Assembly: GCA_031213475.1 (NCBI GenBank)
Contig: JARUPZ010000025.1
Span: 1,426,001 to 1,490,000 of the forward strand
From: Nereocystis luetkeana
Taxonomy: Eukaryota; Sar; Phaeophyceae; Laminariales; Laminariaceae
DNA length: 64,000 bases
Direction of reading: 5' to 3'
The notes under the pieces are model-generated. The model did no database searches and was not told the origin of the DNA. It saw nothing but the letters and a program-made list of their open reading frames with translations. The translations under genes were made by a program, and so were the position numbers. Numbering within the stretch: the stretch's first letter is position 1; every line of letters starts with the position of its first letter. Positions 12,400-63,720 of the stretch are shown piece by piece.

Positions 12400-15300
12400 T
12401 TGTGAACAAGCACCCCTTTAACTCTTACACCCTAGGAAGCTAGGGGGGTACGTGACGACAAACTGGTGAACACGAAGAATTTGGCCAAGCCTGGATCCGG
12501 ACGAGTACATACAAATATTGTTTGCATTTGATCCCGACGGCCGATTTAAATACGAGACAAAACGCCACCCCAGCTACGAGGGGAACGACTATGGATTCGA
12601 CGATCCCCGCCATGGCACACACGACGAAGCGAGCAAGCAACGGAGAAAGAAAGGGAAGACATGAAATCGTCAGTGTCGTCAGCAGATAATACACACAGAC
12701 ATACATGCAAACAAAGCTATTCTCTCGGGTATTTTTTAGTGTTGATTGATTGACTGCGAACAAGGTTTTGTGTTGTACCCGAGGCACGTTTGATTCTTCG
12801 GTTTTGGTTGTTGATTTTGTATCGAGTACGGCTGAAATTCTAAGTTGTGCGTGGCAGACATGGGGCTGACCTTGGAAGGAAATATGATTTTCTTCTGGTC
12901 CTTTAGCAAGCGACAAGCACTGCTGCCAGACAAGTATGCATGGCCAAGTTGCGTACAGACAGTGGCATTGCGTTCCTGAGGTGTTTGCGGGTTCTGAGTC
13001 CTTCGTGCCATTTACGCTATATATTTTGTGGTCACCATGATGTCGTACCGATCCCGACGTGCAAAGAGGGTATTTGAATGACTGATGATGACGGGGGTTA
13101 TCACTAGTTGAAACCTTTGGTGGTGTTCATTTGTTCGCTTTGTTGTGCTTTTTCAGGTCTCTACGTATGTCATTTGTTTTGTTTCTCAGTATACGTGTTG
13201 CGATATATATGTGTACGTGTGCGGCGATTCTGTCGAGCTGAGGGGGAGCAGTATATTCCGCTCCACCATAATAGCTACACAAGTTGAAGCTCATTGGCTT
13301 CGGTCACGTCCCGTCTTATGCGTCGCACACGTGTTGCGACCAGTCTACCCATTCCATGGAGCGATTATGTCGATTATGTCGAGATAGGGGAGTCATATAT
13401 TCCGCTAGTGTATATTGTCTACATGAGTTGAAGCTCGTTCGCTCAGGGTACGCAACCCATATTCTTGTGGCTTAACGTATCAGGTACTAACGAATGCATC
13501 TCGCGGGTCTTGCCGCTAGTAGCTTCGACGGAAGTGCTTCGTCTCGTTATCCTTCGAACATATATTAGTGCATGACACCTAGATCGATTTTTATTAGTCA
13601 TCGCCTCCTATATTTGAAGTGTAGCCGGGGGCAACAACAGGTAGAAGTACTATACTGTATGCAATTCGTCTACCAGGTATGTAACTTAAAAGAGACGTAG
13701 TGCGACTACTCACGCAGCACTCATATTTGGCTAGGGGAGTGACGCTTACTGCGTTGGGCTCCAGCAGAATGGCTGAGGTTGCCACTACGCCTGCAGTACA
13801 AGCGGCTCCCTTGTACAAAACACATACCTGGTACCGTTTACTTGTTACTATAGGTTTTGAATGTCATCGCGTGTTGCAAGTTGTTGGCATTTAACCACTT
13901 GACTGGTGGTAAGTTGTCTTTCAGATCTTGTGGTCATTCGTAGGCATCTTTCCATGGAGCGAAACAATTCAGCCACGTAAGGGAATCATATATTGCCCTA
14001 ACCAAGAACAACAAAAAATCTGTAGAATAAATTGTTGAAACTTATCGATCAGTACCTGTAGCACAGCATCCACTCGCGTGACGTATCCTCCAGATGTTAT
14101 TGAGTACAACTTTATACCCCAAGCCGACTTTTTAGTTCTTCATTGATAATTTCCATGTGCGAGGTCCTGCTCGATCATAGCGACTCTGCAGACTTGGCGC
14201 AGGAACTGCTTAATCTTTGTCGTTGAGCTGAGCAGACGTGAAGATGTCGACGCATGGTTGTGCTCTAACTAAATCATCTGTTGTTGCACCCTACTTGAAA
14301 TATTGCATCGGTACCACCCGCGCAGGTGTCACACAGATCCAGCTTGGTTTTGAGGCGAAACTTACTATAGTGTTTGATTGCTTGAGATACAGGACAGAAG
14401 TAAGATGGAATCCACACAAAATACCTATGCAGAAGAAGCTGCACGATCGTCGACTGACCCTGAAGCGAGAGCATTAAAGGATAGCTGAGCCTGGAAGGAT
14501 ATAGCTTTACATGTGTATTTGCACCGGAACAGCAGCGTAAAAGGGTCCGACAAGCGGTCTGTGAATACATGATCTCCCCCCAAGCCCTGAAGATCGGTTG
14601 CCACTAGGTGATCCGGAAAATTGTGTTCGCTTCCATCTGACGGTCGTCAGCCATGGTCGGCGTTTTAGTCACGCTTCACTCGAGTACATCAACTACAGTA
14701 ACTGCTTCTCGTTACCCATGATGGGTGTTTCAGTAACCTTTAAATTCCCGCTGAGGCTGAGAGGGGTATGATGCAAGTAAAGGCTAGGTAGGTAGTCCAC
14801 TTTTTGCACTATTCAGCACAACAGTCTAATCAAGTACAGCTGGCACAAAAATGCGGTGGGGCAAGAATAGTATTGGGTCCGTTTTATTCAACATTATTCG
14901 TTTTTTTGGCGGGAATGGGGGACTGACGTGGTTAATCTTCTTTGATTCAGCTGGGGTGGCACCCACACTACCTGCGCTACACTACAGTCTGTTGTATCGC
15001 TTCAATAGAACATACTACGTAGTAAGCTAACAACCCTATGTCTTCAGGACAGATAGGTGTTATGTGCGATATTCTGTACAGACAGGTCGGAAAATCATTG
15101 CTGTTGACGAGTTCCACAGCGTGAAACACGTTTCGAATGGCCTTCAAACTGAACAAGCTCTTTGGTGGTACTCACGATCAGTGTTCTACAGGAGTGACGT
15201 TGCTTCCAACAGAGGCTGGTGATCGTTAGCCATGATCAGCACTTTGGTCATGTCCAATCGCCCTGGGACACTAATTGTTTTTCTAGCTTTACGACTTGCA

Positions 15301-15440
15301 TTGAGGGGGGGGTGGAAACAAATAGGCAGGAAGTACATAGCTTATTGAGTCAAAGAGTCAATGCTTGGTAAGTTGTTTTGTTCGAAAATATAAATTAACA
15401 CCGTAATATGAATAGCGGGATGACATTGGAAGACCTCTAA
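12400..15440. other. Long stretch without recognised genes
   Basis: Short open frames exist on both strands, but none has a domain, a convincing splice pattern or a second copy. The motif TACCWGGTA occurs at 13671-13679 and 13825-13833. This interval may hold intronic or unique intergenic DNA; nothing more can be said from the sequence alone. Confidence 0.35.
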
Positions 15441-15444
15441 GCAG

Positions 15445-15720
15445 TTTTGTGGTCGACGAGTTGCAGGGGCAAGCTGTCGATAGATGTTGCTGCAAGACAT
15501 AAATAGTGAGGAACTGGACCCCCCACGTTCACTCTTCTCAACGGTATCGGAAAGTCTTATAGGAGTTCATCGTTGCTTAACTTTTGTTTGCCCATCGAGC
15601 GCCATATATATACTTCTCGACTTGCCCCTTCTAAATCATCAGTGATGCTCGAGGTCTCGTCCAACAACGGCTCTGCGTTCGCGTCTGAAGACCCTCGTCG
15701 TTCAGCCATATATAATATAT
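15445..15720 (-). repeat. Exon-like segment, copy 2 (MAERRGSS...)
   Basis: The - strand frame from ATG 15709 to TAA 15557 gives 50 residues beginning MAERRGSSDANAEPLLDETS. It is the longest open version of the segment found at 11.7-11.96 kb, and the two share the downstream phrase 'cgctcgatgggc' (RSMG). Open length and start context do not prove translation. Confidence 0.4.
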
Positions 15721-16017
15721 GGGTGTGTACGGTGAACAATGATGTCCGGAGACAGCACTTTTTCACCTCCTGACAAACAGCAACTAACTTTGGGTTGGCA
15801 CGTCTTGACTTACACATATGTATTACCACGTTTTCTTGTTTTTTTGTGAAACACTTGGCCCTACGCCCTTGACAGCTCTAGATTTAAATTAGCCTTGCTC
15901 GACTTGCTCCTGACATCTTCGACGATGAAGGGCGCGCGTGAGGGATGCAATTTCGGCTGACTGTGCTCCAAACGTGTTAGGTCATTACACGTTAGCAACT
16001 AACTGCCACTGCCAGCT

Positions 16018-16395
16018 ATTGATAGTCGGGGCGCTCCCGTGGTCTAGATCTCAGCCTCGAACACAACTCAGGCCGAGGTCCAAAGATCGAGTTTCCTCCT
16101 ATATATATGGAGCATTTTTGTTATCCAGAGGTACCAACTGCTGTCGAGAGCGCCTTTTGAAACGTGGGCACGTGAGCATAATTAGACGCGAGTGGACGTC
16201 GAGAGAAAACAGTGCTCGATCGACTTTCTCACGAAACAAATGCAGGGCACACGTGCCGTGTAGTGGGGAGCGGGGAGAACAGCCTACTTATATATATGGT
16301 GACCAAACAATCGATCTGGGTTGCGACCTTAAACAGGAGAGGGCATGAACAATGAGGGCGAAAAAATTAGGTAAGAGGGGCGCGACTGGTTATCG
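16018..16395 (+). repeat. Diverged relative of the tRNA-derived SINE
   Basis: Sequence order parallels the SINE at 36175: 'gagagcgcctt', 'cgtgggcacg', 'gacgcgagt.gacg', 'agcggggagaacagcctact', 'gtgacc...atctgggtt'. The 5' part (ctcccgtggtctaga...) is tRNA-like but weak. Identity looks near 65-70%. No target duplication was found. Best read as an old member of the SINE family. Confidence 0.5.
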
Positions 16396-17774: not shown

Positions 17775-18043
17775 TCTTCCTTTTTCCCCCCCGTCCGCTC
17801 CGTTTTGTGTCTCTGTCTCTATTATATCTTCTTTTTGAAGATAATTTGTACATTAAATGCTTCGTCGTCGTCCATTTCGTTTTTTTGTCCATTCGCTCAA
17901 TTTATATTTTTCCTGTGGTGTTAGTGGGTGCGGAGTATGTATGCTCGTTTATTGTTATTTTATAGTCTTCTTGTTGTTTAACACGCCTACGACGTAGCGA
18001 AGATTGCGAGCCTGTACAAATCTACGAATATATATATACCTGG

Positions 18044-18075
<32 letters not shown>

Positions 18076-20409: not shown

Positions 20410-21355
20410 ATGTCGACGGGTAGAAAGAGTCGAGAACACACAACACTCGACATGTTTTGTCCAGCAAAGTGTTTGCTGGTTGAAATTCAGCACAATAAAA
20501 ATCTGCATCTCACATGTGTCGTCCAACAGAAAGAGCTTCTTTTTCGCAACAGGTGTCACCACAACTTTACTTGGACTGATGTACGACATCTACAGCAGCA
20601 GTGCGCCTCCCGCACCATAACAGCAGCAGCAGCAGCAGCAGCAGCAGTAGCAGTAGGACACACGAGGCCAGGGTCAGCGTCGCCGTACGCTCGGCTTGTC
20701 GGTCTAACCCTTGCACCCTTAGTACGCGTACATATACACATACGTACTGTAGTACGTACCCTGCACTCGTTTTTTTATACCTGGTATGTTTCCTGCTTCC
20801 CACCTGGAAAGTCGGCATTATATTTTCGAGACGTCAACACGAACATGGCATGCCCAACAAGAGCTTCTCGTAGCAGGTGCCACAACTACTGCTGCTGTGC
20901 AACATCTACATCATCAGAGCTTCCCCAGCAGCGAAACAGCAGCAGGTGTAGCAGTAGGATCCACGAGGCCAGGGTCAGCGTCGCAGTACGCTCGGCTTGT
21001 GTCGGTTTAACCCTTGAGCCCTTTGTGCACCGTACTCGATGTTGTGTGTGTGGTTCCTGATTCCACCCCATAATGTGAAGACGAAATATCTACAACCTGA
21101 CATGACATACATGTGTCCAACAGAGGTTCTCGTAGCAGGTGCCACCACTACTACTGCCTGCTGTACAACATCTACAGGAGATCTTCTCCTGTTTCTCTGT
21201 CCCCTCGTCAGTAGGAGGGTGGGCCTGACAATATCACCTGCAGCACATGGCCCGAACGTTGCTGTGGACAGACAGGCGAAGTCTGCCTATCTATGACTAC
21301 TCGTTGTTGGATTTCGTTAGTTATTACCTGGTAGAAGAAAAAGCTAAAACCAACA

Positions 21356-21511: not shown

Positions 21512-22417
21512 GCACAAAAAAAACGTTACCAGGTATGATTTTGAATTTTGAACATGGCCCAGCACAGACATGTGCCTACACACTTTGCCGCACCTAGCTC
21601 GACGAACTGTAAATGATTTTCCACCCCACCAGGACGAGAACGTGTCTTGCGTGTGTGTGTGCGCGCACAGAGCCCGCGGGGACTGGATTTGGTGACTTGT
21701 GCGTCGAGCGGGGTGGGGAAAGGTGGGCCAAAGAAATGTTGAAGCACACACACCAACTCACACACACTCATACAGAAAAACTCAAAAACAAGGCATCCTA
21801 CCCTCGCATCCGAGCCGATATGAAGAGGCTTTTTTTTACTTGGTTTTAAGAACCAAGTAACTAAAGGCTCGCTTCGCTTGCGCGCCTCATTAAACATATG
21901 AAATTGTACCATTTTTTTGTTTTGGCTGAAGCTGTGCTGGTACTACGAGTAGTAATAGGTGGTAATGAGGCGCGACCTCGGTAATACCTGCAGTAGTCAT
22001 ATATAATCTGCGATGCATCATGCTGGGCGCATACGGGTTATTCTGTATTGTGCTGAACGAACGAACACGAAATAATATCTACCACGTACGTACTACTGTT
22101 TTGCACTACTGTCCGCCGTCGTGGGTGCATCTCAATAAGTTTCGTATATATTCTTGGCTTCTCCTGCTCTTGATTCGTATATGAAAAAGTACTGGATTTG
22201 GTCGTGTGTATCCTGGTTTCCACCTCGAAATCCGACAGAGTAATTCGAGGAAGAAATCTGCACTGCTGTGACCACAGAACTTGTATCTCTCAGGGATCGA
22301 GGAATCGGCACGGACACTGTGGTGCTGGATGTTGACGGGTAGAAAGAGTCTAGAACACACAGTACTTGACATGTTTTGTCCAGCAGTGTTTTCTGGTTGA
22401 AATTCATCACAATAACA

Positions 22418-23047
22418 TACGTGTAGCAGTAATAAACCAGCCATTTTTTTGGACTGCGGGTTTTTGGTGGATGCTTCTTCGGGAGCGCTTTGGGGGGGGG
22501 GGGAGTGGGCTCTTGTGGTTTAAGGTGGCAGGGTCAGGGGTACGAGAAATAAAAGTAGTAAAAGCGTGTGGGGGAAAGGGTTGGATGAGGTAGAAAAGCT
22601 ACATACAGAGAGAGCGAGACGGCAGGGACTCTGTGATAGTTACTACCGATAGCAGTGTAGACCAGCAACACCGCACGACCATCTTCTGCGCGTTGAAACA
22701 TGCGTGTAGCAGTAATAAACCAGTCATTTCGATGGACAGCGGGTTTTTGGTGGATGCTTCTTCGGGGGTGCTTAGGGAGGAGGTCTGGGCCCTTGCGGTC
22801 GGAGGTGGCAGGGTTAGGGGTACGAGAAGTAACAGTAGCAATGGTACGTGGGGGGAAGGGTTGGAGAATAAGGTGGAAGAGCCGCAGGAAGAGCGAGACG
22901 GCAGAGATCTCTCATAGGCACTACCGATAGCAGTGTAGACAAGCAACACCCCACGACCTTCTGCGCGTTGAAACTTGCGTCTAGCAGTAATAAACCAGCA
23001 ATTTTGATGGACAGCGGGTTTTTGGTAGATGCTTCTTCGGGGGTTTC
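22418..23047. repeat. ~280-bp tandem repeat, 2.3 units
   Basis: Units start with 'gtgtagcagtaataaaccag' at about 22421, 22704 and 22979, giving periods of 283 and 275 bp. The same family occurs as two units in the opposite orientation at 54705-55248. G-rich tracts (gggggggggg near 22490) mark each unit. Confidence 0.85.
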
Positions 23048-23132: not shown

Positions 23133-23864
23133 GGGAGTGGTCGTTTTTTGGTGGACGAGATGGAGGGAGGTTGGTTCTAGTACTCGTAGTGTTCATGTGC
23201 GTCACATCAGTTTTGATTTGTCGTGGGATACTGCCGCGCTTTTGTTCTGGAGAGTTCTTCACTTTCTGTTACAGTCGTTCATTAGAACAACACTACACGC
23301 TGTCGGATGACAAGCATAATAATACAACAATAATAGTAATTTGAGGACGAAAAATCTGCAGATCACATGTTTTGTCCAACAGAAAGAGCTTATTTTTCGT
23401 AACAGGAGCCACAACAATTTTACTTGGACTGATGTACGACATCCACAGCAGAAGTGCGCCTCCCGCACCACAACAACAGCAGCAGCAGCGGTAGCAGCAG
23501 TAGCAGTAGGACACACGAGGCAAGGGTCAGCGTCGCCGTACGCTCGGCTTGTCGGTCTAACCCTCGCACCCTTTCTTTGTAAACGTACATATGCACATAG
23601 CATGGTACGTAGTACATAACCCGCACTCGTTTTTTTTATATGTTTCCTGCTTCCCACCTCGAAAGTCGGCATAATATTTTTGAGACGACAACACGAACAT
23701 GGCATGCCCAACAAGAGCTTCTTGTAGCAGGCGCCACAACTACTGCTGCTGTGCAACATCTGCATCAGAGCTTCTCCAGCAGCAAAACAGCAACGGGTGT
23801 AGCAGTAGGATCCACGAGGCCAGGGTCAGCGTCGCAGTACGCTCGGCTTTTGGCGGTTTAACCC

Positions 23865-29356: not shown

Positions 29357-29574
29357 AAAAAAACGTTATGATTTTGTATTTTGAACACGGCCGAGCAAAG
29401 ACATGTGCCTACACACGTTGCCGCACCTAGCTCGACGAACTGTGAACGATTTTCCACCTCACCAAGACGAGAAAGTGTATTGCGTGTGTGTGCATGCACA
29501 GAGCCCGTGGGGACTGGATTTGGTGGCGTGTGCGTCGAGCGCGGTGGTGAAAAGTGGACCAAACAAATGTCCAA

Positions 29575-29576
29575 TC

Positions 29577-29609
<33 letters not shown>

Positions 29610-32840: not shown

Positions 32841-33881
32841 TTGATGACGTTGTATAGAATGAACGGAAATCACACGCTGCGCATCAATTTTTTTTTAATA
32901 TCATTCCTTCCACTTTTTGTTTGCTCATGCGTCTTCATAATATGCCACCTTTCCACGCGCAACACCTACCTGTTGAAACCATCTGCCACCATCTATCTAT
33001 CTGTTGTCGACTGCCCAGCAGAGGCAACAAAACTCTGGGTCGCCAGTCACCAGAACTGTGTGGCCGGCACAAAGGACTACCAGTGTTTTACTGCCCTGAA
33101 AACAAGGCTAAAATATCGACAACAGACGGCATTTTTGTTAACCACACATATTTGGCAAATTATTTGCCAAAATAACAAGTTTATGGGAATTTAGGCTTGC
33201 CAAAATAGCAAAAAACTTGCCAAGTTTTTATTTTTATTTTTCCGTTCTGCTTCGTTGGCAAGTTTATGGAAAGTGATATTTGCTACCTGGTATTTAGTAA
33301 TTTTAGCCCAATAACGCTTACGCGAGGTTGTACAAACCAGACCACCCCACGACGCCCCACGCTAGACTCGCTCCAACTTGTCAAATAGAGGGAGATACGT
33401 AGGATACCAGGTGGCATTGATCACAGCGGTGATAGGGCTGGCGACACTGGCCGTGAGCCGTGGGTGGATGGGACATGGGTACCGTTTTGTACGGGGACCA
33501 AAACAGGATCGCAAACAGCAGCCGTCCCAGCTTTTTTTCCTAGCCGTTCCAGCTTTTCCCAGGGTTTGGCCTGGTTGGAAGAACTGCTGACCTCTGAAGT
33601 ACGTTGGCTGCGCCTGGGGTCCTTTCTGCGGTAGCATTTACTCCATAGACCCCGTCGGCGTGCCGTCGGCTGCCTGGCTACCTGCTCCTGCTGCTGTAAG
33701 GGGTTTGACGAAAAATGTGAGGGCGTTGTGTTGTGTATACTTGGCAAATATTGCCTCATACGATATATATATACATGATAAGCAGTATTTCCCGATTAAA
33801 GGTTTTGGCAACTTTATGGAAAGTATCACTTCAAGTCTTGCCAAAATATAAAGTTTTTTTGCTATTTAATTCGCTCGTAAT
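32841..33881. other. Unassigned DNA with 'cttgccaaaata' phrases
   Basis: 33150-33260 and 33735-33860 share phrases (ttggcaa, tttatggaaagt, cttgccaaaata) in direct and inverted positions, perhaps the ends of one ~0.7-kb element. The 9-bp motif TACCTGGTA is at 33284-33292. No protein is recognised. Confidence 0.4.
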
Positions 33882-34382: not shown

Positions 34383-34993
34383 TTCAGAAACAAATTATTA
34401 GCGGAAATGTGCTACCAGGTAGGTATACCTCTATCGTAGAACGGGTCTGGTTTCCATCGAGAAAAAATCGGAAGCCAAAAAATGTGAGGTCCTTCACTTT
34501 CGAGAGTGTGTCAGAGCGACAGCACTTTTCGTGCCGTCCTTCGGAGGCGGACCTCGTCGCTGAAGTTTGAAAGTGTGGTTCCAGGCGCTTGAAACTCCAA
34601 GGTCTTGCACAGCAGTAGGGAACTACCAGGTATTTTGTGTCTGGTGTAGAACGAGAAGGAGAAACGCACTCGGAGCTAACTCGGAGCTTCTGGGTTCTCT
34701 CCTCCTGGTCGTTAGCAGCTACTGTATACAGCAGAAAATACAAAACCGACTTTTAGTACGAGAAACTGGAAAATGAAGCGCCTGGAACCACATTTTTCAA
34801 CTACAGCGACGAACTCCGCCCCGTGGGAGGAGACGAAAAATGCTGTCGCTTTGGCACACTAACGGGCGTGCACCAAGGACGTCAATTCTCCCTTGCCAAT
34901 TTTAGCGCGATAGAAACGTTCGGAGATGTAGGCAAAAAAAAAAAAAAAAAACTGTAAAAACGGCGACAGACGTGATTCCAGCGTCTACGTTGT

Positions 34994-36043: not shown

Positions 36044-36161
36044 TACCTGGTATCCTTTGTTCTTTTTGATTTTTGCTGTGTATATATGTATTGTACGAGT
36101 AGTTGCTGTTGATCTTGTTGTCAAATAAGTATCGCCACAATACATGTACAATGCAGTCCGA

Positions 36162-42560: not shown

Positions 42561-43440
42561 CCATAGGCCTCGATCACGTCTCATACCAACCCCAAACCCC
42601 GCATTCCCATTTTTCGTAGTCTACCCCCTCCCCATTTAGTCCCCTGTCCTAATAATTGCTTCATTTCTACGGCAACTGCATTCGAAGGTATAACTCTTGA
42701 AAACTTCTCCCCCCCTCTCATCGCTCATTGATACGTACATCCTTTTCGCTCTTCCACCCCCCCCTGACGTTAGATTTCCATCATCGACACCCCTCCTGCT
42801 GTACGTCCCGTTGCTCCTCCAGTCGTTCTCGAATGCAAGGCATACAGTATAGGCCCGCCGATAAGAAGGTGCCCAGTGAGAACATAACGCTCACTTTTTC
42901 GAGAACGCAAAGAAAATTTGGTTAAAAAAAACGGCTTAGTGGCGAAACGCACACAACATCCTATAAATTAGCATACCTGGTATATATTATGCTCATAGTT
43001 GTTCGAAGATGGCGACCCGATAATAATTTAAGGCTTAACCAGAGTAGCTGTTCCTTGTTGACGGGCCCATACTGCTGTCCTCACCAGGTTCTAACCCTTA
43101 CCCTCCCACTATATTATTCAGTGCTGAAAACAACACCCAGCAGGTGTCACAAAGCGAAAATGACGAAACCTCTAGTCTGGAGGGGTTTTCGAGGTCGCTT
43201 GGTAGCGGGTGAACAAACTATACAAAGTCAATCCTATGATCAACAACAATATAATGGTATGGTACATCGTCTTCTAGCGGACGGAATATGAAGACCGAAC
43301 TCGTGACGGAGGACGGTATTTTGGCGATCTAGTCTCGTGCCTGCCGGTGTTTTTGCTTTATACTTTTGCCGACAATAACTCTTGTTACCGCGAGCTTGGT
43401 AATTGATTGATAGCTTACCCCTCAGGGCCTATAACAGCTC
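42561..43440. other. No gene recognised
   Basis: Pyrimidine-rich to 42830, then mixed. TACCTGGTA occurs at 42974-42982. No repeat partner was found in the window. Confidence 0.3.
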
Positions 43441-43759: not shown

Positions 43760-44390
43760 AAGGTGACACCTTCGCGTTTGATGTCGTCGAGGTCATGGTT
43801 CGAATCTCATCTCGCACGTTTCTTTTAGAGAAGCACTCGCGCGCGCGTCCCTTAAACCGTTTCTCCCTGGTTCCCCAGGTATTTAAACGAGGCGAGTAGG
43901 TAGGTCAGCACCGTACGGCTGTCGTATACGGTACCGTCGCCACAACGGTCCCGCCGTTCCAAGGGGGGCGGGCATTTATGGCTGCGGCGGTTCATCCCCC
44001 GGACAGAATACACACCTTTAGAACCATCTCATACAACAACTGAACAGCATGCACTCAATATTTGTGAAAATAAAATATCAACATATAAGCTATCGGTGCG
44101 CAGAACGAGCATTAACATGTCAATTGTCCTGTTGACCCGGGCAGCATCCAGGGGAGCCGCTGGCCTCTGAATCACATACCAGGTATAGAAAACGCGCGAA
44201 CGGCATATCATACAACTTGTTTAACTCAAGCTAAAATGGGATACATAGACCGAACGAAATACGCAGCTGGCAAAGTTGAGTACCGGGTATCAACTATTTA
44301 ATCAGTCGAACTCACAGCTGGCGTATCAGTATTTCATACCAGGTAATATTTTACAAACGTGAATATGTAGGTACCACAGTCAATATCGAC
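43760..44390. other. No gene recognised; three TACCNGGTA palindromes
   Basis: TACCAGGTA lies at 44177-44185 and 44337-44345, and TACCGGGTA at 44281-44289. No other structure is clear. Confidence 0.4.
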
Positions 44391-44400
44391 GAGTTGAGAG

Positions 44401-44682: not shown

Positions 44683-45225
44683 GCATATTACTACGGGGGA
44701 CAATAGTAAATAGGACTAAATATTGTTTGGCAAAAAAAGCGAAATATATACCGGGTATATTTTTTTGCGTGCACCGTAGATCCTCCCTGGTGTTTGCTAT
44801 ATTCCACCTTAATAGTATGTCGATCGCGGCCAAAGCTCTCGGCGGCCAAAGCTCAGCAGCGGAAGCAGCAGCGGCTGCAGAAGAAGGTTTTCGCAGACAC
44901 AGTGGCTGGAAGGAGCCAAGCTGCTGCTCAGGAGCTGCTGCGCTCAGGAGCAGCAGCGGCAAAAATCTTCTGCGGCAAAAGCTATTGGCAGCAGCAGCAG
45001 AAGCTGCTTCTGCAAAAGTTGTCAGCAGTCAGCAGCAAGTAAGTGTTACTATTGGTATTAGCTGCTGCAGCAGCGTAAAAGCATCTCAGCTGTCGCAGTA
45101 TGATAGAAGCATCTTGTGCGGGGTGTTGTAGCTCCTTTTTTCTGCTGCTTCTTGTATAAGTCACGCTTGAGGATGCAGAATCGGCACCGAAGCCACCACA
45201 GACAGACCTATCGGAACTCGGAACC

Positions 45226-45353: not shown

Positions 45354-46107
45354 GTGTTGGCCACCTCGCCTGCGGGGGGGGGGGCACGACAGATTGTTTC
45401 TCTTAGATTTTGCTTTCATTTTTCTTCTTTTTCTTTTTCGATTTGTCTACCTTGTTTTTGTTTTCTCTTTGATTGTTTCTTTTCGTTTCACTATTATTTC
45501 ATAGATTGCGTATGTCGTGCCTGTCGTATCTAGTTGTTGTTGTTGTTGTTGTTGTTCTCACATTAACTCACAATTCAATGCAGTCCGTGGTCGCAGGACA
45601 GGCTCCAATAACTCTGGAGTGGAAGAAATACCTCAAGTAAAAACAGAGGCAAAAAAAACAAAAAACAGGCATACGCACTCCACCACTGCGGACACCAGGG
45701 AAGCAAAAAGGAGACTATTAATAGCAGACAAAAACCTCAAAAAAGAAGATGAAGCTAAGCAAAACAAAAACAAAAACAAAACTAAAACAAACGCAGATAG
45801 CAAAACGCGAAAAAAAGGCAAGGCAAAACGGACCATACTAACAAAGACACAAAGAGGTACAAACGGGAATGAAAGAAAAATGAAAACAAAGAAGGGACAA
45901 AAAAGCGATAATCACGGGTATGATGACATGGCTTTGCATTGCCCATTGCAGTTCACACTGCACACGTGGCAACGTAGTATCTCTGTGGCGTAGCTTGGTG
46001 ACCACAGAACTTGTATCTCTTCTAGGATTGAAGAATCGGCACGGACACTGGTTGTGCTGGATGTCGACGGGTAGAAAGAACGGTTTAATGCGAAGAACAC
46101 ACACACA
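45354..46107 (+). mobile_element. LINE-B 3' end (+ strand) with nested LINE-A tail
   Basis: LINE-B 3' UTR runs to 'gtcgtatctag' (45533), is interrupted by LINE-A, and resumes 'tatgatgacatggc' at 45919, ending 'gaagaacacacacaca' at about 46107. The joined phrase occurs uninterrupted at 36688-36705. Confidence 0.85.
45533..45918 (-). mobile_element. LINE-A 3' tail inserted into LINE-B
   Basis: (GTT)n at 45534-45557 is the - strand (AAC)n tail. LINE-A 3' UTR follows up to 'gcgataatcacggg'. The 5' truncation point is within the 3' UTR. Confidence 0.9.
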
Positions 46108-46109
46108 CA

Positions 46110-49100
46110 CACACAGAGATACTACGTTGCCACGTGTGCAGTGTGCACTGCGGTGGGCGATGCAAAGCCATGTCATCATACTAGATACGACAGGCACGAC
46201 ATACGCAATCTATGAAATAGTGAAACGAAAAGAAATAATCAAAGAGAAAACAAAAACAAGGTAGACAAATCGAAAGAGAAAAAGAAGAAAAATGAAAGCA
46301 AAATCTAAGAGAAACAATCTGTCGTGCCCCCCTTCCGCAGGCGAGGTAGCCAACACTTGAAAAATAACGAGATGGAGATAAGAAGGCAAAAAATAAATAA
46401 ATAGGAAAAAACACCACTGCTTGTAAACAGAGTAAGACAAAAAACCAAGGAAAAAAGTAACGAGGAAAAATAACAAAGGGGAAATAACAGGCAGACCAAA
46501 GCCCAAAGCACCTTCCAGGTGACGGCAGCAACTTGTGGTACGAGTAGTATAGCCAGGTTCTCCTTGCTAATCCGCCTGGTACCTTGCTACCCAGACTGCC
46601 GTCTCCGCCCTGCGTTCGTCAACTATGCCCAGCCCCTTGGCGTCAGACAATACGAAACGAGCAGAGCAGGTTCGTCTTGCAACCACGCCACATGGCTCCT
46701 TCAGTACGGCTTATCAATCAGAAAAGGAAGAGGAAGAGAAAAATAGAACATGAAAATCACGGAGAGTCAGCGCAAGAAAACAAAAAAAAAAAAACAAGAA
46801 GAGAAGACAAGGGAAGACCACGTTCGAACAAGCTACACCGGTTGGTAGCACTAGTAGTATGGTCATGTTCTACTTTCTAGTCGACTTGGTGCCTTGCTAC
46901 CCTGTCTGCCATCTCCTTCCTACTTTCGTCTACCGCCGTTTCCCTTCTACCCCTCCTGTTCCCCCCCCTCTCCGCATTCCCTCGGTCGGGTTTTCTGCCA
47001 CTTCTCCTGTTGCCCCCTCCCCCCCCGTTCCCTTGGGCACCATCCACGGCGTATGCGCGGTGTTGCCTACTCATCTCAGCCTCAGCCTCGTGCCACCTCA
47101 CCACGAACCGTTCGGCTGCTTCAAGGATCCCCCGGTACCACTTCCCCGCCTTTTAGGCTGCAGTAGACCACAGCGCGGTCTCAACTCCAAATACCGAGGG
47201 GGCAACTTCCGTTGACCCTTCGGTGGCTCGGAACTCCCTAAGGTCTTCGACTATGCATCTATGCCAAGTCTTACACTGTCCGCCTGGTCTCGGGTTCTCC
47301 CCACCAGCTATCGTCCCGAACATTACCCGACTGGGTAATCGCTCCTTGCTTTGCCGTGCCACGCCCCCCGCAAAGAAGAACCGCCGTTTACGAATTGCGT
47401 TTCGATGCTCTCGCAACGTGTCATCTTGAGGGCCTTCGCGTACGACAGGGTGGCATGGTCAGTATGAAGTCGGCGCTGGAAGCCAATGACTCGCAGCAGG
47501 ACTTGGTGGTGAGCAGTTCGAAGCTTGGCAAAGTGTTCCGCTCTGGGGGTCCACGTCACACACCCGTACAGCAGGGTCTCAATCACCTCGGCCTTCAGCA
47601 TGCGGACTTTAAGGCTAAGGGGGGCGGTCGTCCTATCATACAAGTCCGGGCCGAACCGTTTGAGGCATGCTCGCATGAGGCGGATCCGTCGGTCGATTTC
47701 GAGCGAGAGCGCAGCGTTTTCGTGGATAACACCGCCTAGGTATAAGAACTGGGTCGTCTGCTTATACCTCTGACCTGCCGCTTCGATGACGAGCGGTGGT
47801 GCGAGGGTTGTCTGGTCTGGTGTTTGTAGGACCATTGTCTCAGTCTTCTTTTCCGACGCCGTGAGGCCTGCTGCTTCGAAGACAGTCACGATGACTGTCA
47901 TCATTTTTGCGAGCCCTTCAGCCGACTTCGAGACAATTCCTGCATCATCGGCGTACAACATGGCCCATACAGACCTTTGCACGCACGCCAATGCCTCCTC
48001 CTTCCCTGTTTGAACTACTCCAGCTTCACAGAGTTGGACCAAATCCCTTACAATGGCTTCGTCTTGGCTGAAGCGTACTAGTACGACGTGTAACGCAGCA
48101 GCGAAGAACACGTTGAACAGTAACGGTGATAGTACACAGCCTTGCCGCAGCCCCTGCGTGACATCAAACCATTCCGAGAGCTCGCCGTCATCAGTACGCA
48201 CGCGAGCCCGCATGCCATCGTGGAAATTACGGATAATGCTCAGCATCTTGGTTGGTACGTCAAAGCGTGTGAGTACCTTCCATAACAGCTCTCGGTCGAC
48301 AGAGTCGTACGCTTTCTGCAGATCGATGAGGCACACGTAGAAGGGCATTTTCCTCTGTCGTCCGAGCTCTTGCAGCCGGCGCACGACGAACAACATATCA
48401 ATCGTTTATCGTGCGGGGCGGAAGCCACACTGTTCCTCGGGGAGTAGTTCCTCGGTCTCGCAGTAGTTGCTGAGGCGGGACGCGACGATTTTCAACAACA
48501 CTTTGCCTGCGTGGGCAACAAGCGAAATCCCTCTATAGTTGTTGCAGTCATTTCGATCCTTCTTTTTGTGAAGGACCTTGATTATCGCATCTTTCCATTG
48601 CTGAGGGACTTCTCCTGGTAACCAAAAACTGACGAGGATGTTGTGAAAGCGTTGGGCGAATGCCGGGTGGTCGATTTTTAGGAGTTCGACCGGGAGACCA
48701 TCTGGCCCGACAGCTTTCCAATTCGACATCCCCTTTAGTGCTTCTGTCATCTCGTCTATGGATGGTTCATCTTCAAGGGACAGTTTAGGCGGTCGCGGTG
48801 GCAAGAGGTCGATGATCGTGGGATCGAGTTTCAGCGACTTCGTGTTCAAGAGTTTGTGGTAAAACCCCGCCCATCGTTCACGAATTCGCACCTTATCCCG
48901 TAGGATCGTGCCATCCTCGTCCCTAATGAACTGTTCGCTCCTCGCTTTAGTCCCTTCCAATTCTACCGTAATCTTAAGGTGCTTGTAAAAGCCTCTTTGG
49001 TCGTTGTTCGCTAGGAGTCGTTCGGTTTCGGCAAGGTACGCTTCGAAGTACGCATTCAGTCCCGCGGCAGTCACCTTCTGCAGGTTCGCACACGCAGATC

Positions 49101-50002: not shown

Positions 50003-52724
50003 TTTGTCCACACGCACGTGTGTGTTCTCCATGTTAAACCGTTATTTCTACCCGTCGACATCCAGCACAACCAGTGTCCGTGCCGATTCTTCAATCCTAA
50101 AAGAGATAGCAGTACAAGTTATGTGGTCACAAGGCTACGCCACAGATATATCACTTTGCCAGGTACCAGGTATGCAGTAAGCACAGCAGTGGGCAATGCA
50201 ATGCAATGTCATCATAGGTACGACAGGCACGACATACACATTCTATAAAACATAGAACCGAAAGGAAACAATCAAAAAGGAACAAAAAACATGAGACAAA
50301 TACGAAGAGAAAAAATGAAATAAAAAATAAAATAGAAGAAACAATCTGTCGTGCCCCCCCCCCGCAGGCGAGGTGGCCAACACTTGAAAAATAACGAGCT
50401 GGAAAGAAAATATATACCAGGAAATAAAAAACAAAAACACCACTGCTTGTAAACAGAGTATAAGGCAAAGAACCAAGGAAAAAACAACAGAGGGATAAAA
50501 TAACTGGCGGGCCAAAGCCCAAAGCACCCTCCAGGTGTGGCGGCAGCAGTTTGTGGTACGAGTAGTATAGCCAGGTTCTCCCTACTAATCCGCTTGGTAC
50601 CTTGCTACCCAGGCTGCCGTCTCCATCCTGCCTTCGTTGACTATGCCCAGCCCCTTGGCGTCCGGCAATACGAAACGAGCAGAGCAGGTCCGTCATCCAA
50701 CCACGCCACAGGACTCCTTCAATACGGCATATATATCAATCAAAAAAGGAGGAGAAATATAAACAATGAAAATCACGGGGAATCAGCGCAAGAAAGAAAA
50801 AATAAAAAATAAAAAATAAAAATAAAAAAGGGGAGACAAGGGAAGACCACGTTCGAACCAGCTGCACCAGTTGGTGGCACTAGTAGTATGGTCATGTTGT
50901 ACTTGCTAGTCGGCCTGGTGCCTTGCTACCCTGTCTGTCATCTCCTTCCTACTTTCGTCTACCGCAGTTTCCCTTCTACTCCTCATGCCCCCCCCCCCTC
51001 TCCGCATTTCCTTGGTCGGGTTTTCCGCCACTTCCCCTGTAGCCCCCCTCCCCGTTCCCTTGGACACCAACCACGGCCGACACCAACCACGGCCGACGCA
51101 CGGCGCTGCCTAGTCATCTCAGCCTCAGCCTCGTGCCATCTCACCATCAACTGTTCGGCTGCTTCAAGGATCCCCCGGTACCACTTCCCCGTCTTTTTGG
51201 CTGCAGTGTACCACAACGCGGTCTCAACTCCAAACACCAAGGTGGAAGTTTCCGTTGACCCTTCGATGGCTCGGAACTCCCTAAGGTCTTCGACTATGCG
51301 TCTATGCCAAGTCTTACACTGTCCGCCTGGTCTAGGGTTCTCCTCACCAGCTATCGTCCCGAACATTACCCGACTGGGTAATCGCTCCTTGCTTTACCGT
51401 GCCACGCCCCCCGCAAAGAAGAGCCGCCGTTTACGAATGGTGGTTTCTATGCTCTCGTAATGTGTCATCTTGAGGGTCTTCGCGTATGAGAGGGTGGCAT
51501 GGTCAGTACAAAGTCGGCGCTGGAAGCCAATGACTCGCGACAGCACTCGGTGGTGAGCCGTTCGAACCTTGGCAAAGTGTTCCGCTCTGAGGGTCCACGT
51601 CACACACCCGTACAACTGGGTCTCAATCACCTCGGCCTTCAGCGTTCGGACTTTAAGGCTAAGGGGGGCGGTCGTCCTATCATACAACTACGGGTCGAAC
51701 CGTTTTGAGGCATGCTCGCATTATGCGAATCCGTCGGTCGATTTCGAGCGAGAGGTCAGCGTTTCAGGGGATAATGCCGCCTAGGTATAATAACTGGGTC
51801 GTCTGCTTTTACTTCTGGCCTGCCGTTTCGATGACGAGCGGTGGTGCGAGGGTCGTCTGGTCTGGTGTTTGTAGAAGCATTGTGTCTGTCTTCTTTTCGC
51901 GAGCCCTTCAGCCGACTTCGAGACAATTCCTGCATCATCGGCGTACAACATGGCCCATGCAGCCCTTCGCACGCACGCCAACGGCCCCTGCTTCTCTGTT
52001 CGAACTACTCCAGCATCACTGAGTTGGACGAAATCCCTTACGATGGCTTCGTCTTGGCTGAAGCGTATTCTTACGACGTGTAACGCAGCAGCGAAGAATA
52101 AGTTGAACAGTAACGGTGATAGTCCACAGCCTTGCCGCAGCCTTGCCGCAACCCCTGCGTGACATCAAGCCATTCCGAGTGCTCGCCGTCATCAGTACGC
52201 ACGCGAGCCCGCATGCCATCGTGGAAATAACGGAAAATTCTCAGCATCTTGATTGGTACGCCAAAGCGTGTAAGTACCTTCCATAACGCCGGTCGCCCCG
52301 GTGGTTCAAGTTGTTAACCTCGAATTCTACTTGTTTCAGTCCTGGGTTCGAGCCCCAGGAGGGTCGGACTTTGACTTTATTTGCAAAAATAAAAAAAGGG
52401 ATTCAATTGTGTAGAGCGCCTTGCAGCGTGGGTAGGCACAATTCGATGCGAGTCGACGAGGGAAGAAAAGGCTGAAATCTTCTCGCGATAAAAAAAAATG
52501 AAGGCACGGACCGTAGCGGGAAGGGGGGAGAAGAGCCTGCTATGTGACCCCGGATCTGAGTTACGAGTTGGAAGGAGAGAGAGAAGAAGATGTGCGAAGA
52601 TAATGAATGGGATGAAAAAAATTTATAAATAAATAAATAACAGCTCTCCGTCGAGAGAGTCGTACGCTTTCTGCAGATCGATGAAGCACACGTAAAAGGG
52701 GATTTTGCTCTGTCGTACACCAGG
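50003..52724 (-). pseudogene. LINE-B copy 2, 5'-truncated, interrupted by a SINE
   Basis: Starts inside RT at 'cagatcgatgaagc' (matching 48317-48330), is split by the SINE at 52288-52636, then follows copy 1 through the C-terminal region ([40 protein letters not shown]) to the 3' UTR and the LINE-B tip at about 50003-50210. It has a small duplication of 'cttgccgcag' near 52140 and an internal deletion that removes the region just after the YADD-type box (51900). Its 3' end abuts the truncated 5' end of copy 1. Confidence 0.9.
52288..52636 (+). mobile_element. Full-length tRNA-derived SINE inside LINE-B copy 2
   Basis: Nearly identical to 36175-36535, with the same B box (ggttcgagcccc) and an A-rich 'aaataaataaataa' tail. 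It is flanked by ATAAC (52283-52287 and 52637-52641). The uninterrupted target 'ccttccataacagctctc' is visible in LINE-B copy 1 at 48277-48294. Confidence 0.92.
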
Positions 52725-52859: not shown

Positions 52860-53061
52860 GAACCAGTGCATACCGGGGGCCTGATACCTGTCAGAAACGG
52901 TGGGTCATTGACAGACGTGGACCAATCAAGCGTACCAGCCAGGTATACCGGGTATACTGCTTTAATATATTTTAGGCCGCGGTTGTCCCACACTAAAACA
53001 GTACCAGGTAGTAGTTTCGTGTCCGTCAATGACGAAAAATATGGTGTATTGAAAATACAAA
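52860..53061. other. Short stretch with several TACCNGGTA motifs
   Basis: TACCGGGTA is at 52946-52954, TACCAGGTA at 53002-53010, and a split form 'taccagccaggta' at 52933-52945. No gene. Confidence 0.6.
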
Positions 53062-53973
53062 GGGTTTTTGCCAAAATCAGGTATACCTCTTCACTTTTCG
53101 CCCTAAATCAGTTGCTTGCTAAAACCAAGTAAAAAACACGCCCCAAGAGCCCTGCTTTTGGCCAGGCTGACATTGTATCTGGTTTTCGTTCGAAAAGGCC
53201 AATATATACCTGTTTTTTCTACTCTCTCTAGCTTTTAATTGATGTGGCCCAACTTTGAACAGATCAGAGAGGCCATACGTGTGATAGATACACTTCCTGT
53301 TTTTTCTCTCCGTATGCGTCGGCCCTCGCTCGGTTGAATTTCTTCTCTTTCAATATCTAAACTCTGTACTCGAACATCGTACCAAAAAGTACGTGTTTTT
53401 ACATGCATGCATGCCGTGCGCTGGTTTCACTTTTTCTTCTTTGGGGGGTGCGACGTGCTTCAGTTATCAAATATTAATAGTTGTTGTGATATGTACTCGG
53501 TTGTTTTCTCTTCTAGAATCTCACAACACTAACAGTGATACAGCACCATCATGGTCTTTGTATGCACCACCCTGCGTCGAGGTGGTCTCAGGTTCGGTAC
53601 GGCAAGATATTCTCGTGACGAGCAGGCGGTTCCGCGAGGAAGGTCTAGAAAATTATAGCTGGCAACGGGGGATGGCCGCCAGAGAAAAAACTCTTGGCGA
53701 CCCCGCCGTGGCGAAACAAACGAAGTCTAATAATTAGTGACTCTCTACAGGTCCAAGCGGAGTTCGTGGTATCTACACCGTAAGAAAAACAAAACAGTTC
53801 AGAGATTGAAGGCCATGTGGCACGCTTAATGATTTAGAGGCAACATTTTTTACCGGACTCTAATGGAAAGAAAGAACAACGCTCGTGGCGCGCTTTTCAT
53901 ACTTGGTTTTAGTATCTACCTGATTTTGGCTCAAAAGGAAAAGGTATTTACTGATTTTGGCATTTATTTGCCC
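53062..53973 (+). mobile_element. ~0.9-kb TIR element, copy 1
   Basis: Begins gggtttttgccaaaatcagg and ends 'actgattttggcatttattt' then gccc, so the ends are inverted around 'ccaaaatcag'. Central phrases 'tgcgtcgaggtggtctcagg' and 'caggcggttccgcgagga' are shared with 61688-62556. A ~70-codon frame in the middle (APPCVEVVSGSVRQDILVTS) is conserved in part between copies but has no known domain. Confidence 0.75.
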
Positions 53974-58620: not shown

Positions 58621-60430
58621 AGCAAGCTCCGTGGGCGAGGCAACACACACAGATAGTAGATCAAAACGCGGTGAAGAGAGTAGACAGTGCGATGCCCTCA
58701 TGCCATCGCACTAGTTACGATAAGCGTAGCATGCACACGCCGGAGAACCGGACACAGCTGTGATTAGAAAAAAAACGAAAGGCACAGCAGTGCGTGGAAA
58801 AAAATAAATGACAAAAAAATACAAAAAACTTCTTCGTATAAAACAAAGAACAAGTTATCGAAAAGGAGAAAACTACGTACCATGTACCTGTGAAACAAAA
58901 CAAGAACAAAACTACCACTGCGAAAACGACTACGGTACGAACATGTAGAGCGAAAAGCAAAACCATATTGAGAGCAAAAAAAACACAAAGATAACTACAT
59001 ATATTGAAAATAAAACATGGAAACACCGAATAGGAGAAACCTACGTACGTACCGGGTACGATGGTACCTACCTGTAAAACAAAAACCAAAAGTATTATTT
59101 CAATGCAAACAACAATGCGAATACTACTGTAGCATAGAAAAGTCAAAGAGAGAAAGAAACTACGCCCAACCCGAGGCAAGTTGGATAGCCGACGATGGAA
59201 GGAAGGTACAGCAGTACTACTGTAGTACCCCCAAGAATCGGAGCGGACCTATTTCTGTAAAGCATACCACGTATTGCACGCGCCCTACAGTTTGTTTTCT
59301 TTGACATGCTTTAAACTTGCCGTGGATCGGGGAGTGCGCCAACGCACATCCTCTTCCCTGTGTCGTTAGTTACCTCTGTCACGGCAGTTCCATATAGTAG
59401 ACTAGTCCCCCCTCATTTTCTCCATGCTTCGAGGTATACTCCTACCTTCGAATGGAAAAATCTCGTACCCTACTCATTTAAAACTAAAAAAACGATTTGG
59501 CTGTATAGGCTATAATATATAAACTATCATCTCGACACATATTCATACATAAATAATCGGCGTCTGTGCCATCTCTGTCTCAAATTGGTCACCGACCCGA
59601 ATGTCATCCTGAATTGCAACACTCAGTTCTGGTTGCACTCAGTTCTGGTCGGAGTACATGTCTGTTGTCTGGTTCGGGGCCGAAGGCTTACTTCGGTTTC
59701 CATGTGTTTCATTCACACAGGTAGGTACAAAAACCGAGGGCAAGCTGTTGCACGCTGAAAAACGAAAACTACAGTATCCACGACTTACTTGTGTTGTCTG
59801 CGGTCAAAGTCAATTATCACAGTGAATGCCACAGCCCCGGCGATAGGGGATTTGGGGAGGTTTCTCATCAACTCAGCGTCGAGCCTGATTCAGCAACTAG
59901 ACTCTGGGTCGCGTCAAGGTTTGTCGTTCTTGACCAACAAGTGACTAGCCTCAGTTTCAATGTTTCCATCCTGATAGTCATATCGGCACAGCCCGGTACA
60001 GGCCGGTAAAGCAAAACGACACCCATCACTGCCGCCCATTGCTGTCGGGGCCCGCGTGTACCACCGAACGCCACAATCGCGATGGTGAGTTGTGAAGGCA
60101 AAGGGTTCCTAACCGCGATTGACAATCTGCATTTCTACACGCCCATCTGAGAAGCGTCATTTTTTTGTGTTTGTTTTGTTTGGGATGAATGGGCCTGCTT
60201 CAGACATCGCGAAATTATATACCGGCCGGTGCAAATACCGGAGCAATCACCTGGTACACAGGCCTTCGCCTCGCCTGACTAAAAAAAGCTTGGGTCCGTG
60301 CTAAGGATGAGTCTCGGACCCGCTGTACTGTTGGTACAAGTAGGCCGATAGACTCTTGCTTACCAGGTATCATACAACAAGACGTGAGGAGTGTACGGCG
60401 GTAGACCTCTACGACTGATTGCGGCCGACT
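58621..60430. other. Unassigned DNA, A-rich to 59020
   Basis: 58740-59020 is A-rich with short phrases. TACCGGGTA lies at 59050-59058. From 59800 to 60100, phrases such as 'gcaactagactctgggtcgc' resemble 33020-33045, suggesting an unnamed repeat. No gene is supported. Confidence 0.3.
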
Positions 60431-61414: not shown

Positions 61415-61552
61415 GTGAGTTTCCAGCACTAACTACTGTTGTCGCCTAATCATGCACGCTGCGATAGAGGACGCATAGTACGATAGTCGCGGGTGGTTCT
61501 GCATGTATGTAATGTGTATGAACCTCCTCACTTCGGGAATTTCATACATTAA

Positions 61553-61641
61553 CCCTTTTAGAACCGCAGTCCCGTTCTGGGGACAAACCACTCAAATTTC
61601 AAGTAGTTTTGTCCCCAAACGGGACTGCGGTTCTAAAGGGG
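61553..61641. mobile_element. Palindromic piggyBac-like MITE, intact copy 2
   Basis: An 89-bp palindrome flanked by TTAA (61549-61552 and 61642-61645), with arms 'ccctttta' + 'gaaccgcagtcccgtt'. It lies 138 bp downstream of the sulfotransferase exon, within the presumed intron. Closest to 34058-34145. Confidence 0.88.
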
Positions 61642-61687
61642 TTAAGTGAGTCGTTAGGGAGTCACACACCAGAAGACGTTTGATGAA

Positions 61688-62556: not shown

Positions 62557-62639
62557 GTTGATAAAACATGGTAGGCTCTTTTGAAGCTACACGAGGAACT
62601 TGATTCCACGGCCTACTTGCTAACGAAGAATATCGTTCC

Positions 62640-62940
62640 ACACAATAGGATAAGGCATGCCTTGTTTGGTACAAGCCACATGCCTGATTGGGCACGAGGC
62701 ATGCCCTTTTGGGTAAAAGGAATGCCTCATTGGCTAAACGGCATGTTTTATTGGGTATGCGCCGCATGCCTTATTCGGTATAATTAAGCCTCATGAATTA
62801 TTGGGTATGAGGCACGCCTTAATTGATGTAAGCCGCATGCCTTGTCGGGTAAATATAACACGGTATAAGGCACGCCTTATTGGGCATGAGGCACGTCTTA
62901 TTGGGTACAGGCACTAAGGCGCGCCTCATTGGGTTGTTCC
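62640..62940. repeat. Minisatellite with palindromic GGCATGCC core
   Basis: About 12-13 imperfect ~20-25-bp units of 'ggcatgccttattgggta'. Variants include ggcacgcctt and ggaatgcctc. The unit core is self-complementary, so the two strands read alike. Confidence 0.8.
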
Positions 62941-62944
62941 TTGG

Positions 62945-63300
62945 CTAAGGAAATCCGTCAGTCAACATAAACATCTCGACCACGCTACTCGTAGCCCGAA
63001 AGCTTTTGAGCAGAACGTTTTACGCCCCCCCCGCCCCCCCCCCCCCCCCCCTCGCCGCGCGCTATCCCAACTCTCGTTAGAGGTGCACCTGATCATTTTT
63101 GGGGTTCCCTCCTGGTTTGAGCGGCTCTCTATCCTTATAAAAAAAGCTTACATTCTAACACCGACCTGGTCCAAACGAGAAGACGCCATCTACGGTGGTA
63201 AGGGTTGCGACGCCTGTTTTTGTTCTTGGGCTCCTCGCTTTCTTCCGAGGAGACTTTTCACCTCCTATATTAACTTTTAGTTTGGCCTGTGGCCACAACT
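62945..63300. other. No gene recognised; long C-run
   Basis: A C-run of about 25-30 bp (63025-63051) precedes mixed sequence with no known motif. Confidence 0.4.
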
Positions 63301-63720
63301 AGGCACGCCTGATATATTGATATCACAGTCAGGTACTACTGAAATCAAGCAAGAAACGCGCGCCACGAGCGGTGTTTTGTCCATGATTTGTTTTTGAAAA
63401 TATATATGCGCGCCGACTTATCATCAAGCGGGTGCCTCCAGAATGTGAATTGCTTTGTTTGCGCTCTACCTGGTAGGGTATAGGTTCCATGGATTCCACT
63501 TGGGCCGGCAGAGTCACCAGACCTCGTTGATTCGCCTCGACGGGAGCGCCAAGAAAATTTATTCTGACGCCCCTCCCAGCCAGGTTGACAGCTTGGACGT
63601 TTCTCGACCATCCTCGCTGTGAGCCCCCTGCTCGGCACGGAATTATCTTGCCGTACCAAACCTGAGACCACCTCGACGCGGGGCAGTGCAGACTGCCGTC
63701 TGTGTCCATCGTACTCGTAC
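63300..63720 (-). repeat. ~0.9-kb TIR element, reversed 5' fragment
   Basis: The - strand phrases 'cgtcgaggtggtctcagg' and 'ggtacggcaagata' (about 63645-63685) match the middle of the elements at 53.1 and 61.7 kb. Homology weakens toward 63300. TACCTGGTA occurs at 63477-63485. Confidence 0.6.

Follow-up and report, generated by a model that had tools for sequence, protein, structure and literature searches.

TACCWGGTA, a palindrome dispersed through the Nereocystis luetkeana genome, is a probable excision footprint of a TA-specific DNA transposon

The nine-base palindrome TACCWGGTA (W, A or T) occurs 17 times, as nine TACCAGGTA and eight TACCTGGTA copies, in a 64-kb window of the genome of the brown alga Nereocystis luetkeana (64,000 nucleotides of contig JARUPZ010000025.1; C25:1426001-1490000). 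A sequence-only reading of this window had listed at least 17 exact copies and put the chance expectation at about 0.5 per 64 kb. Our count agrees, with 16 of the 17 coordinates correct and the last copy lying at 63467 rather than 63477, and a dinucleotide Markov model gives an expectation of 0.32 W-centred copies, i.e., an approximately 50-fold enrichment. The four TACCGGGTA variants that it reported also sit where it had placed them. Copies, variants and the empty TA dinucleotides that correspond to some of the copies are given below in window coordinates, with no strand assigned; L numbers designate fetched loci.

13671..13679, TACCAGGTA, exact match
13825..13833, TACCTGGTA, exact match
18037..18045, TACCTGGTA inside a TA-repeat tract, exact match
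20778..20786, TACCTGGTA, filled site; the copy at 23350-23865 has TA plus a one-T difference
21325..21333, TACCTGGTA; the copy near 29114 carries a different, complex insertion
21527..21535, TACCAGGTA, filled site with a clean 7-bp difference by copy comparison
23639..23640, empty TA, counterpart of 20778 by copy comparison
29367..29368, empty TA, counterpart of 21527 by copy comparison
33284..33292, TACCTGGTA, exact match
34413..34421, TACCAGGTA within the compound insertion TACCAGGTAGGTATA; other repeat copies have TA (L018) or TATTAATA (L030:811)
34624..34632, TACCAGGTA, exact match
36044..36052, TACCTGGTA, exact match
42974..42982, TACCTGGTA, exact match
44177..44185, TACCAGGTA, exact match
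44281..44289, TACCGGGTA variant, exact match
44337..44345, TACCAGGTA, exact match
44749..44757, TACCGGGTA variant, exact match
46712..46713, empty TA in a LINE-B repeat; L021:8773 has TACCTGGTA at the same place
50164..50172, TACCAGGTA; its empty counterpart in L007 is weak, with 3 mismatches in 26
52946..52954, TACCGGGTA variant, exact match
53002..53010, TACCAGGTA, exact match
59050..59058, TACCGGGTA variant, exact match
60361..60369, TACCAGGTA, exact match
63467..63475, TACCTGGTA, exact match (63477 in the sequence-only reading)

Within the window, TACCWGGTA was the top-ranked 9-mer once simple repeats had been filtered out, and its single-substitution variants, the centre base excepted, numbered at most three copies each. 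CCWGG was flanked by TA 17 times and by each of the 15 other dinucleotides between zero and two times. When the spacing between TACC and GGTA was scanned from 0 to 20, a spacing of 1 was found 21 times and all other spacings 0-3 times. TACCCGGTA was looked for in the window and none was found.

The genome-wide count, which the sequence-only reading had put forward as a check, confirmed the excess of TACCWGGTA and showed it to be far stronger than in the window. In the genome of 465,085,209 bp and 1,987 contigs, 182,395 copies were counted, i.e., one per 2.55 kb, vs 1,744 for the same pattern read backwards, which served as the control for genome counts. A frequency close to expectation, named in the sequence-only reading as contrary evidence, was therefore not observed. 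Amongst 25 stretches of 10 kb picked by position on large contigs, 22 contained at least one copy, with 91 copies in total; the three motif-free stretches were L009, L030 and L042. Further analyses used samples of 244, 262, 311 and 331 kb. Inspected by eye, the first 262 kb had 96 copies with mostly distinct flanks, so that TACCWGGTA is not one satellite. In the literature on footprints and iterated palindromes, as covered by a search that included few subscription journals, no description was recognised as this motif; matches to the 9-mer string, as the beginning of a word in 19 papers, suggest primers.

Two parts of the window are motif-free, i.e., the positions before 13671 and 21536-33283, and these coincide with the copia open reading frames (ORFs) and with a 97.9%-identical tandem pair near 30293-32691. 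The absence of the motif from the copia and LINE-A stretches, pointed out in the sequence-only reading, was thus seen again. That reading had taken it as a sign that the motif is older than these elements or avoids them. The absence fits young elements, yet it is weak evidence, as three of the 25 fetched 10-kb stretches were also motif-free and L009 alone amongst them is known to carry a Gypsy-type reverse transcriptase. L009 encodes this reverse transcriptase/RNase H together with a nearby ORF with a NADAR domain.

Repeat copies that differ at a single TA were compared in a sample of 330,831 bp (window plus fetched loci, overlaps removed). At each of 128 TACCNGGTA sites the motif was swapped for TA and the empty form was searched for in the same sample, a clean empty site being defined as one without a gap and with at most three mismatches in 26 positions across the junction. 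Junction-spanning copies were found for 23 of the 128 motif sites, and a clean empty TA for six of these 23. The control comprised 1,103 other TA-N5-TA sites in the same sample, 297 of which had a spanning copy and five a clean empty site; of these five, two belong to tracts of T runs or TA repeats and a third overlaps with a site of the motif. Motif and control sites thus differed in clean rate with Fisher p values of 2.6e-5 (spanning sites) and 3.4e-4 (all sites), bearing out the proposal in the sequence-only reading that the motif replaces TA between repeat copies. The six clean sites are L021:8773 (empty in L014 and at window 46712), L041:9284, L041:9871, window 21527, L027:1556 and, weakly, window 50164. 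The pair at 21527 and 29367-29368 shows the clean 7-bp difference that had been claimed for it, and the pair at 20778 and 23639-23640 provides a seventh case, in which the empty copy differs by 7 bp plus one extra T in the adjacent T run. The copy at 50164, already described as less clean, proved messy on checking too, and those at 34413 and 21325 belong to compound insertions. Empty counterparts contain a single TA, filled sites a duplicated one.

One repeat family, F1 (14 copies, i.e., 15 fuzzy hits minus a spurious one in L018), displays several states at one TA. At its site 1 (TCACG-TA-GTGTT), nine copies have a bare TA, three have TACCWGGTA (centres T, T and A), one has TACCCTGGTA and one has TT; the empty copies include L003:961, with TA after an adjacent substitution, and L013:7004, with TA kept and the motif 7 bp on. 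At site 2 (TTACA-TA-GTACTCC), bare TA is again present in nine copies, with TACCTGGTA, TACAGTA and a miniature inverted-repeat transposable element (MITE) in one copy each and TA absent from two. As empty TA is the majority at both sites, it is most likely the ancestral state; the three filled site-1 copies may be independent or partly inherited.

Several other words were enriched as X in TA-X-TA. In 244 kb, CCWGG was observed 85 times vs 2.1 expected, TTAA 42 vs 1.3, CGAG/CTCG 46 vs 6.9, CAG/CTG 73 vs 30, and CCAGGG/CCCTGG 9 vs 0.56; ATAA (58 vs 3.0) and CTAC (40 vs 3.2) were also enriched and fit triplet repeats. TACTCGTA recurs in repeated sequence (L012:8744 and related copies), and this part of the TA-CTCG-TA excess is no scar. 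Clean 6-bp gains were found at L014:9088 (TTAA plus TA) and at window 50107 (GCAG plus TA). Additionally, a 105-bp TA-flanked MITE (TTAC...GTAA), TTACGGGGG...CCCCCGTAA, lies at L003:826-934 and has an empty site with no mismatches. A fuzzy search with its end gave 30 matches in 262 kb, not all of which are genuine; fuzzy end matches lie at window 634 and 44693. At positions -3, -2 and -1 the MITE insertion flanks have T, A and C at frequencies of 0.54, 0.69 and 0.54 (22 ends), the preferred target being TAC-TA, and the corresponding values for TATTAATA are 0.53, 0.54 and 0.50 (106 arms). Given this common target flank, we read TATTAATA as a footprint with 2 nt per end, i.e., as the presumed excision scar of the MITE. 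TA-X-TA excision scars are very likely a part of this genome. The window contains three TATTAATA copies and one further micro-insertion, again with no strand assigned:

759..766, TATTAATA, presumed scar of the 105-bp MITE family, exact match
45716..45723, TATTAATA, exact match
53472..53479, TATTAATA, exact match
50107..50114, TAGCAGTA, a TA-X-TA micro-insertion of another kind, whose empty counterpart is clean

By the same empty-site test, TATTAATA had 54 sites, 10 of them spanning and three clean (one of these a triplet repeat), and other TA-N4-TA had 1,452 sites, 378 spanning and 35 clean, many of them triplet repeats. The respective numbers were 18, 5 and 2 for TACCNNGGTA, and 19, 3 and 0 for TACCGGTA.

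The shape of the putative scar was examined through the spacing of TACC and GGTA in 262 kb. Spacing 1 was found 104 times (96 with W and 8 with S at the centre), spacing 0 was found 16 times and spacing 2 was found 17 times, nine of the latter being CCAGGG/CCCTGG. The simple CCA or CCT joins, TACCATGGTA and TACCTAGGTA, were absent from 331 kb, where TACCATA and TATGGTA gave raw counts, taken without an expectation, of 17 and 16. Of the X words 3 nt long, CCA/TGG was outside the ten with the highest enrichment in 244 kb. A 5-nt overhang, CCWGG, would account somewhat better than a 3-nt one, CCW, for the CCWGG scar, for its 6-nt slip form (CCAGGG/CCCTGG) and for the lack of TACCATGGTA.

A symmetric flank preference surrounds TACCWGGTA and peaks on either side at -7 and -6 (224 arms, 0.25 bits each). 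W-A is favoured at these positions: after exclusion of 24 arms that contain a second motif, TA started at -7 in 41 of the remaining 200 arms vs 14.6 expected, and AA did so in 39. An AT-rich, symmetric target preference around TA is thus present, and modest. The tandem form TACCWGGTACCWGGTA occurs 15,917 times genome-wide vs 2 in the control and accounts for 8.7% of copies; blind re-insertion would give approximately 1.5%, by arithmetic from a TA density of 0.0526 per base. Of 112 motifs, 5 fall in ORFs of at least 200 aa, which make up 18% of bases. A deficit of this kind would be expected of an insertion that shifts the frame, but such ORFs are also poorer in TA, and we treat it as no more than supporting evidence. 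In 262 kb, 93 one-mismatch variants were observed vs 49.6 expected, alongside the 96 exact copies, which suggests a decay of roughly 4-6% per site, i.e., scars that are neither all new nor ancient.

We consider it likely that TACCWGGTA is the uniform excision footprint of a TA-specific cut-and-paste DNA transposon, a reading that draws on the clean empty sites, the occurrence of several TA-X-TA insertions, the match between MITE flanks and those of its presumed scar, and the tandem nesting. Such a transposon would insert at TA, duplicate it, and on excision leave CCWGG and the second TA behind. Its transposase would cut the non-transferred strands approximately 5 nt inside ends reading CCAGG or CCTGG, and the resulting 3' overhangs would anneal as C-G, C-G, W:W, G-C and G-C, with the central mismatch repaired to A or T; annealing slipped by one base would yield CCAGGG or CCCTGG. 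Judging by these products, the cut probably produced 5-nt, nearly self-complementary overhangs. Each footprint would also create a fresh TA with a second TA 7 bp away, a preferred spacing, and could in this way give rise to tandem nesting. The parent element would be either low-copy or largely gone. As no parent was found, we describe the scar as working like a Tc1/mariner footprint and do not file it as one. The sequence-only reading had also proposed the footprint of a TA transposon, with ends of the form CCW...WGG. The exact 7-bp gain at TA is supported by our data, whereas the proposed ends are not established, no such element having been found in the parts of the samples examined.

A number of results weigh against this footprint reading, beginning with the search for the parent. 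No TA-bounded element with CCWGG ends was detected in the examined parts of the 244-311-kb samples, and PF13358 (DDE_3), the transposase family covered, gave no match in the genome. Moreover, of the 23 motif sites with a spanning copy, 17 fail the strict clean rule owing to adjacent substitutions or gaps, and two of the six clean sites are themselves imperfect, in that L027:1556 sits in a stretch of otherwise variable length among copies and 50164 has three mismatches. The empty-site test separates TATTAATA poorly from other TA-N4-TA (3/10 vs 35/378). Tandem centres were the same in 40 and mixed in 19 of 59 plus-strand places on contig 1 (hand count); independent repair would give equal numbers, and part of the doubles, perhaps a third, may have arisen by duplication. 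The excess of one-mismatch variants consists mostly of TA-to-TG/CA changes, for which the footprint model does not account, and the variants are uneven, with TACCAGGTG found 14 times, TGCCAGGTA 10, CACCAGGTA 9 and TACGAGGTA 8 in 262 kb vs approximately 2.5 expected for each. Finally, the Tc1/mariner footprints described in PMC7913693 are generally 2-4 bp, shorter than the 5 nt here.

All four routes taken to the parent were negative. TACCNGG words without a following TA numbered 155 on both strands of 244 kb, with no abundant family apparent by eye. TA-flanked inverted repeats (18 bp, at least 15 matches) gave 129 pairs in 262 kb, 12 of which start with CC and several of which lie inside longer inverted repeats. 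One such pair (window 42974-44757, 15/18) falls within the preferred AT-rich flank and was dismissed as chance, and in a 355-bp pair at L018 4282-4636 (CCTCTATCG, 18/18) the repeat runs past TA on both sides, so that TA is not its boundary. An 842-bp TA-flanked imperfect inverted pair at L018:6865-7706 (CCTCGG/CCCAGG ends, 15/18) is a candidate element with CC...GG ends. A CC start was seen in three of the listed repeat tips bounded by TA and a CCWGG start in none, and none of 25 candidate large TA-duplicating insertions begins with CC; amongst these 25, empty sites without mismatches were found for the 105-bp MITE and for L014:3399-8754, the latter without inverted ends. A search for doubled motifs returned nine stretches, each with two or three single motifs, which we took as chance. 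Two transposon proteins had no relatives among viral contigs.

Direct insertion of the 7 bp at TA without any larger element, by a minimal mobile unit or as a nuclease or polymerase product, is in our view unlikely. It would account for the failure to find a parent in samples holding approximately 100 scars, and for the dominance of one product, unlike the heterogeneous Stowaway footprints described in PMC1925063. Against it stand the other TA-X-TA insertions and the match of TATTAATA to a resident MITE by target flanks. We also know of no direct insertion process with such sequence specificity.

Rather improbable, too, is a mariner-like footprint with overhangs of 2-3 nt (CC or CCW), in which the end remnants were joined with a one-base overlap or addition, corresponding to the CCW...WGG ends of the sequence-only reading. 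PMC7827188 describes 3' overhangs of 3 nt for both Sleeping Beauty and mariner, and the Stowaway footprints of PMC1925063 retain pieces of the two ends, approximately 6 nt in total at most, so that 5 nt is in range; this coverage slightly favours short overhangs and slightly disfavours direct insertion. Shorter and longer joins do exist (16 TACCGGTA and 17 TACCNNGGTA vs 104 of the main form in 262 kb), but the simple joins are rare, as judged from the absence of TACCATGGTA and TACCTAGGTA and from the rank of CCA/TGG noted above. A W:W overlap alone would provide no base pairing, and the dominance of a single product would be left unaccounted for.

That the motif is a maintained palindromic site, serving protein binding, methylation or replication as in the case of cyanobacterial iterated palindromes, appears very improbable. 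TACCWGGTA is an exact palindrome at very high density genome-wide, and CCWGG is the target of the bacterial Dcm methylase. The copies differ, however, by an exact 7-bp gain and not by point changes, and tandem doubles at 7 bp, target-like flanks and decayed copies need no selection. The converse process, in which an ancestral motif was lost by a 7-bp deletion between the two TA copies, is the least credible. Slippage could remove X and one TA from any TA-X-TA, as five of the 297 controls appear to show, but this control rate is far lower than the motif rate, the empty state is in the majority at both F1 sites, and different sequences occur at the same TA across copies.

The presumed footprint resembles those of Tc1/mariner elements (Sleeping Beauty, Mos1, Tc1 and the bacterial ISY100) in its TA target, in the duplicated TA that is kept and, putatively, in the short remnant of the element ends between them. 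The Sleeping Beauty footprint is CAG/CTG, with a central mismatch. An AT-rich palindromic target preference is shared with the Tc1/mariner element ZB (PMC7913693). Footprints of 0-3 and 0-4 bp were measured for two Tc1/mariner elements (PMC7913693, PMC9976928), and cuts 2-3 nt inside the element are described in PMC7827188 and PMC2170065; taken together with PMC1925063, PMC4561436 and PMC4423477, these sources describe cell-assay footprints of 0-4 bp as well as heterogeneous ones of Stowaway. Relative to the systems in these sources, the CCWGG scar suggests a cut at 5 nt instead of 2-3 nt, and it differs in its one dominant product, its approximately 182,000 copies and its lack of a visible parent. 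The remnant of 5 nt (6 in the slip form) lies outside the 2-4 bp of PMC7913693 and within the Stowaway totals of PMC1925063. Footprints of Stowaway MITEs and Osmar elements in grasses are a comparable case, with terminal inverted repeat fragments between TA copies and re-insertion into the same TA (PMC1925063); those described there are heterogeneous and concern single loci, whereas a single form prevails across the present genome. HIP1 and related cyanobacterial palindromes are also short and reach very high density (PMC4390886). Unlike HIP1, the copies here lie in a eukaryotic genome and arise by exact insertion at TA.

If the copies are indeed footprints, the 182,395 scars would count past excisions directly and make transposition measurable without elements present, and the shape of the scar would report the transposase cut. 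A 5-nt overhang, if true, would be longer than the 2-3-nt Tc1/mariner cuts described in PMC7827188 and PMC2170065. Every scar adds 7 bp, which shifts the reading frame, and probably offers a favoured new TA target, so that the process could be self-reinforcing. More extreme, and doubtful, is the idea that a fixed 7-bp unit itself spread approximately 182,000 times without a larger intermediate or, in a less extreme form, that a transposon with 5-nt self-complementary overhangs scarred the genome and then vanished. Should no parent exist, this kind of micro-insertion would, to our knowledge, be without precedent.

Some minor features were also recorded. A hairpin repeat of approximately 95 bp with AGAACCGCAGTCCCGTT arms is present at window 34051-34151 and 61550-61644 and gave a below-threshold match to mir-708; L012:7950-8050 suggests a TTAA-flanked MITE. 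A sub-threshold isrG covariance match at window 8951-9051, within a copia ORF, was judged to be chance. Amongst the indels between repeat copies in the window, a size of 4 bp was common (19 of the 146 listed by size); many of these 4-bp indels are tandem duplications, e.g., CTATCTAT or ACTTACTT, and form a class distinct from the TA insertions.

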